This document shows, piece after piece, positions 5,305 to 9,591 of a DNA stretch of 64,000 bases. The notes beneath the pieces were generated by a model. It had not been told where the DNA came from and searched no databases. It was given only the letters and a program-made list of their open reading frames with translations. Where the stretch lies: assembly GCF_018320785.1 (NCBI RefSeq), contig NC_054886.1:10291207-10355206 (forward strand), read 5' to 3'. The stretch comes from Cheilinus undulatus (lineage: Eukaryota > Chordata > Actinopteri > Labriformes > Labridae). Positions within the stretch are counted from its first letter, which is position 1. Every line of letters begins with the position of its first letter. The translations under genes were made by a program, and so were the position numbers.

Positions 5305-9591
<4,287 letters not shown>

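Follow-up and report, generated by a model that had tools for sequence, protein, structure and literature searches.

The trinucleotide CAT at 9453-9455 (+) of the window, which is the whole stretch of 64,000 nucleotides analysed from Cheilinus undulatus, is very probably a real exon of rwdd4 that consists of a single His codon. It would be mainly constitutive, present in most or all transcripts, and its two flanking introns would be removed sequentially by intron definition. Read directly from the window, CAT is preceded by CAG and followed by GTAAGT; the wider context is CTCCTAATCCTCCAG before CAT and GTAAGTC after it. Exon 6 ends at 9339 with the junction GTTATTAAA/GTAGGT (the slash marks the splice junction), and 9559, at the junction TTTCTCAG/CTGAGTAAA, is the first base of the last coding exon. 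In the rebuilt coding frame, the junctions on either side of CAT are both phase 0. The first-pass annotation had placed a His codon CAT here between AG and GTAAGT, and its coordinates are exact in the sequence; the exon bounds, the phase and the splice sites that it gave all agree with the rebuilt gene.

The term microexon is used here for an internal exon of 3-30 nt. CAT has a canonical acceptor and a canonical donor on its flanks (CAG/CAT/GTAAGT), as a microexon would, and it fits the 185-aa frame of the neighbouring exons, as a coding one would.

The rwdd4 gene and its surroundings

The rebuilt coding region of rwdd4 has eight coding exons between 5305 and 9591 (+), with a total of 558 nt that encode 185 aa. 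The features are as follows.

5305..5328, plus strand: coding exon 1 (MTANEDQE)
5961..6041, plus strand: exon 2
6169..6278, plus strand: exon 3
7482..7632, plus strand: exon 4
7789..7894, plus strand: exon 5
9290..9339, plus strand: exon 6, 50 nt, ending in VDVIK
9340..9452, plus strand: intron upstream of CAT, 113 nt, GT-AG, with donor AAA/GTAGGT and acceptor CCTCCAG/CAT
9403..9452, plus strand: acceptor tract of the microexon, rich in pyrimidine (86% C/T over 50 nt)
9453..9455, plus strand: predicted exon 7, the 3-nt microexon CAT (His), phase 0 on both sides, the best of the 407 AG-NNN-GT sites in the window
9456..9558, plus strand: intron downstream of CAT, 103 nt, GT-AG, with the highest donor and acceptor scores of the gene's seven
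9559..9591, plus strand: last coding exon, including the stop codon

Intron 2 (6042-6168) appears to be of the GC-AG type (AGG/GCAAGC ... CATCAG/ATA).

The predicted protein carries the N-terminal RWD domain of an RWDD4 (PF05773, E = 2e-23, residues 5-107 of 185); the two further Pfam families that were returned are both far below their cut-offs. Seven PDB sequences match the protein, from RWD domains of the RWDD1, RNF25 and GCN2 types, and none of the seven covers its C-terminal tail. When the tail alone is compared with the PDB, just two restriction-enzyme chains are returned with E above 1, which is no meaningful match. Relatives of the locus were also sought in a viral and a prokaryotic collection, where 64 and 199 pattern stretches, respectively, include none that codes for a relative, and DNA that could encode GWNWVDV(V/I/M)K, sought as a pattern, has 0 matches in either. 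These blanks are expected for an animal gene and are uninformative on fish.

The name rwdd4 is used because of two features. One is the tail of human RWDD4, which we take to be similar, including its ...KDDE ending, and on which the name partly rests. The other is an ING2-like open reading frame at 34760-35560 (-), since ING2 is presumably the neighbour of RWDD4 in human. This frame encodes 266 aa, and of the 30 PDB sequences that match it, ING2 comes first (E = 1.3e-38). A 203-aa open reading frame at 34711-35322 (+) overlaps it and is probably only its shadow.

Repeats lie on both sides of the gene. A very long, degenerate tandem array occupies 2-4077, with about 510 copies of an 8-base unit (GTCCATTG) at 72% matches. 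It encodes SIGPLVHW-like peptides in long open stretches of all three plus-strand frames and ends about 1.2 kb ahead of the first coding exon of rwdd4. On the other side, just downstream of an apparent exon of the next gene that ends near 12450, tandem repeats at 12728-13519 have degenerate units of about 20 bases or a multiple of that (AGAATTCCGACTTTAATCTC and similar). Further away, a 257-aa open reading frame at 53032-53805 (+) has a hydrophobic start followed by Thr/Pro-rich repeats (KPTPAKTTQSP) and a mucin-like look.

The CAT site against chance and other sources of His

The CAT site is more than a product of chance. The 219-nt interval 9340-9558 was put through 20,000 dinucleotide shuffles, a lenient null that gives approximate figures since shuffling destroys pyrimidine tracts. 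Of the shuffled sequences, 0.21% contain an AG-NNN-GTRAGT and 0.10% an AG-NNN-GT, whatever its codon, with a splice score at least that of the CAT site; none has a His codon scoring that high. By combined splice score, calculated with approximate matrices, the CAT site ranks first among the 407 AG-NNN-GT in the window (212 on the plus strand and 195 on the minus strand) with 16.6, and the next best reach 14.5 (-) and 12.2 (+). For a length of 3 in 219 nt, the spurious-match formula for microexons described for MicroExonator (PMC7821500) comes to 0.013 when a single codon is specified and to 0.026 when both His codons are allowed. The pyrimidine tract also stands apart. By criteria set after the site had been seen, one of the 3,932 AGs on the plus strand of the window has a comparable tract, and this is the CAT site itself; one of the 4,351 on the minus strand does too, with no NNN-GT after its AG.

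These figures bear on the alternative in which a single 219-nt intron contains AG-CAT-GTAAGT by chance, the mRNA runs straight from 9339 to 9559 and the protein has no His at this position. The frame does stay open when 9339 is joined straight to 9559, so the reading frame does not prove inclusion of CAT, and a bare AG-CAY-GT appears in as many as 1.88% of the shuffles. Nevertheless, this reading is very improbable, given the zero count in the shuffles for a His codon with sites of this strength and the top rank in the window. The interval also contains two acceptor-like tracts, and a single intron would need no second. In addition, CAT sits between phase-0 exons where human RWDD4 presumably has a His, and Lys-His-Leu-Ser around it is likewise presumed to be conserved.

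Only the CAT exon can supply a lone His from within 9340-9558, as a check of other positions for this codon confirmed. The last exon has two in-frame alternative acceptors (9370 and 9376), both of which read into stops. In-frame donors past the end of exon 6 add VG, VGV or ten residues, never a lone His, and those still further along meet stops. A second CAGCAT, at 9387-9392, has TCATC after it in place of GT. The predicted junction sequence is AAACATCTGAGT when CAT is included and AAACTGAGT when it is skipped.

Splice-site strength and the order of splicing

On the same approximate scale, the microexon donor GTAAGT is the highest of the seven donors in rwdd4 (8.55). Its acceptor has a 16-nt matrix score of 7.99, the fifth of seven, because TAAT interrupts the final 15 nt; its tract, measured across 50 nt, is the richest in pyrimidine of the seven (0.86). 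The nearest upstream AG starts 63 nt ahead of the acceptor AG. A possible branch site is TTAAC, with the A at 9402 and thus 51 nt ahead of the microexon, while a CTAAT with its A at 9444 is probably too near the AG. The acceptor of the last exon (9558) is the best of the seven (12.23).

Since three nucleotides are too few to seat U1 and U2AF/U2 on both sides at the same time, the two short introns (113 and 103 nt), each with sites of its own, would be removed sequentially by intron definition. Removal of the downstream intron first is favoured, because the two introns are similar in size and no other donor or acceptor of the gene is as strong as those of the downstream one. CAT would then become the 5' end of an exon of normal size, which would be joined to exon 6 by way of the long pyrimidine tract. 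The inability of U1 and U2 to assemble on both sides of a microexon together is also suggested in the Insplico paper (PMC10250204). The control microexons described there are divided roughly evenly between upstream-first and downstream-first removal, which counts against the downstream-first order.

The reverse order would amount to recursive splicing, in which exon 6 is joined to CAT first, the donor AAACAT/GTAAGT is rebuilt and the last exon is added afterwards. The rebuilt donor would be stronger than the original donor of exon 6 (8.55 against 6.02), and the strong acceptor tract sits upstream of CAT. This order is nonetheless less likely, since of the two introns the downstream one is slightly shorter and its sites are stronger.

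From the phase and the strength of the sites we infer that CAT is included in the mRNA, and a mainly constitutive inclusion would be expected by likeness to the 4-nt exon of MPC1. An alternatively included exon, which would give isoforms with and without His, perhaps in a tissue-dependent manner like the 3-nt exons of NCAM or RPS24, is the less likely arrangement. It draws on the preservation of the frame by 3 nt, which leaves both forms open, and on published 3-nt exons, which are mostly alternatively spliced in the accounts of PMC8042270 and PMC7392893. Against it, CAT combines the strongest donor of the gene with a long pyrimidine tract. The sole TGC of the upstream intron, a motif of the SRRM4 type, is at 9385, 68 nt before the microexon. 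A neural microexon that depends on SRRM4 would have UGC close to a weak acceptor context and would be included specifically in neurons; here the acceptor tract is rich over 50 nt, and its 16-nt score is fifth of seven. Strong sites may not be sufficient by themselves, however, since in the HeLa reporters described in PMC9929638 constitutive splicing was not obtained for four other constitutive microexons. The probabilities given to these rival readings overlap, as whether the exon is real is one question, and how often it is included and in which order its introns are removed are others.

Comparison with known tiny exons

The view in the first-pass annotation that single-codon exons are extremely rare needs to be softened, since several 3-nt exons have already been published (NCAM, troponin T, homothorax and RPS24). 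As a kind, such exons are known, and the rwdd4 case would add another gene. Exons of 3 nt are described for mouse NCAM and Drosophila troponin T, the latter being skipped in one larval muscle set (PMC8042270), and exon a of human RPS24 is a 3-nt, epithelial exon (PMC8563012). Like the rwdd4 exon, all three are internal exons of exactly 3 nt. They belong to other genes and are described as alternatively included, whereas for the rwdd4 exon, by the look of its sites, steady inclusion is predicted. Micro-Ex8 of Drosophila homothorax is likewise a 3-nt coding exon and is reported to be evolutionarily conserved (PMC7392893). It differs in that donor choice produces it from the opening 3 nt of a 48-nt exon. 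In rwdd4, GTAAGT directly follows CAT.

The 4-nt exon of human MPC1 is constitutive, and 67 nt upstream together with 6 nt downstream suffice for it (PMC9929638, 2023). It resembles the rwdd4 exon in being a very short coding exon, and depends on an upstream tract and a consensus donor. It is different in that skipping it would shift the frame and its introns are long, while in rwdd4 the frame is kept and the introns are about 100 nt. For the constitutive 1-nt exon of Arabidopsis APC11, intron definition with sequential removal has been proposed, and a downstream-first order is cited in the same paper for the 9-nt exon of potato invertase (PMC4674806). The APC11 exon, like that of rwdd4, is too short for exon definition, although it is from a plant gene and has a length of 1 nt. 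As of 2015, that source gives 6 nt for the smallest constitutive exon known and 3 nt for the smallest alternative one.

A literature search found no paper in the library covered that mentions RWDD4 together with a microexon, and nothing evident on an RWDD4 microexon among the matches listed, as judged by titles and the openings of abstracts. The rwdd4 exon may nonetheless be published or annotated already, for instance in a supplementary table or a genome annotation.

A one-codon exon puts the spliceosome to a severe test, since both of its splice sites can hardly be occupied together. It does the same to annotation, because common aligners lose sensitivity on such short exons, with a drop reported below about 8-10 nt (PMC7821500). 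Models of rwdd4 without CAT would lose one residue of the C-terminal tail. The natural locus is compact, as exons 6 to 8 span only 302 nt (9290-9591), and a small minigene could show which of the two introns beside such an exon is removed first. A wider reading, given slightly less than even confidence, is that this constitutive exon, spliced by sequential intron definition, is ancient, has been kept across vertebrates and is overlooked in many fish gene models. If the exon is indeed constitutive and conserved, few constitutive coding exons of vertebrates would be as small.
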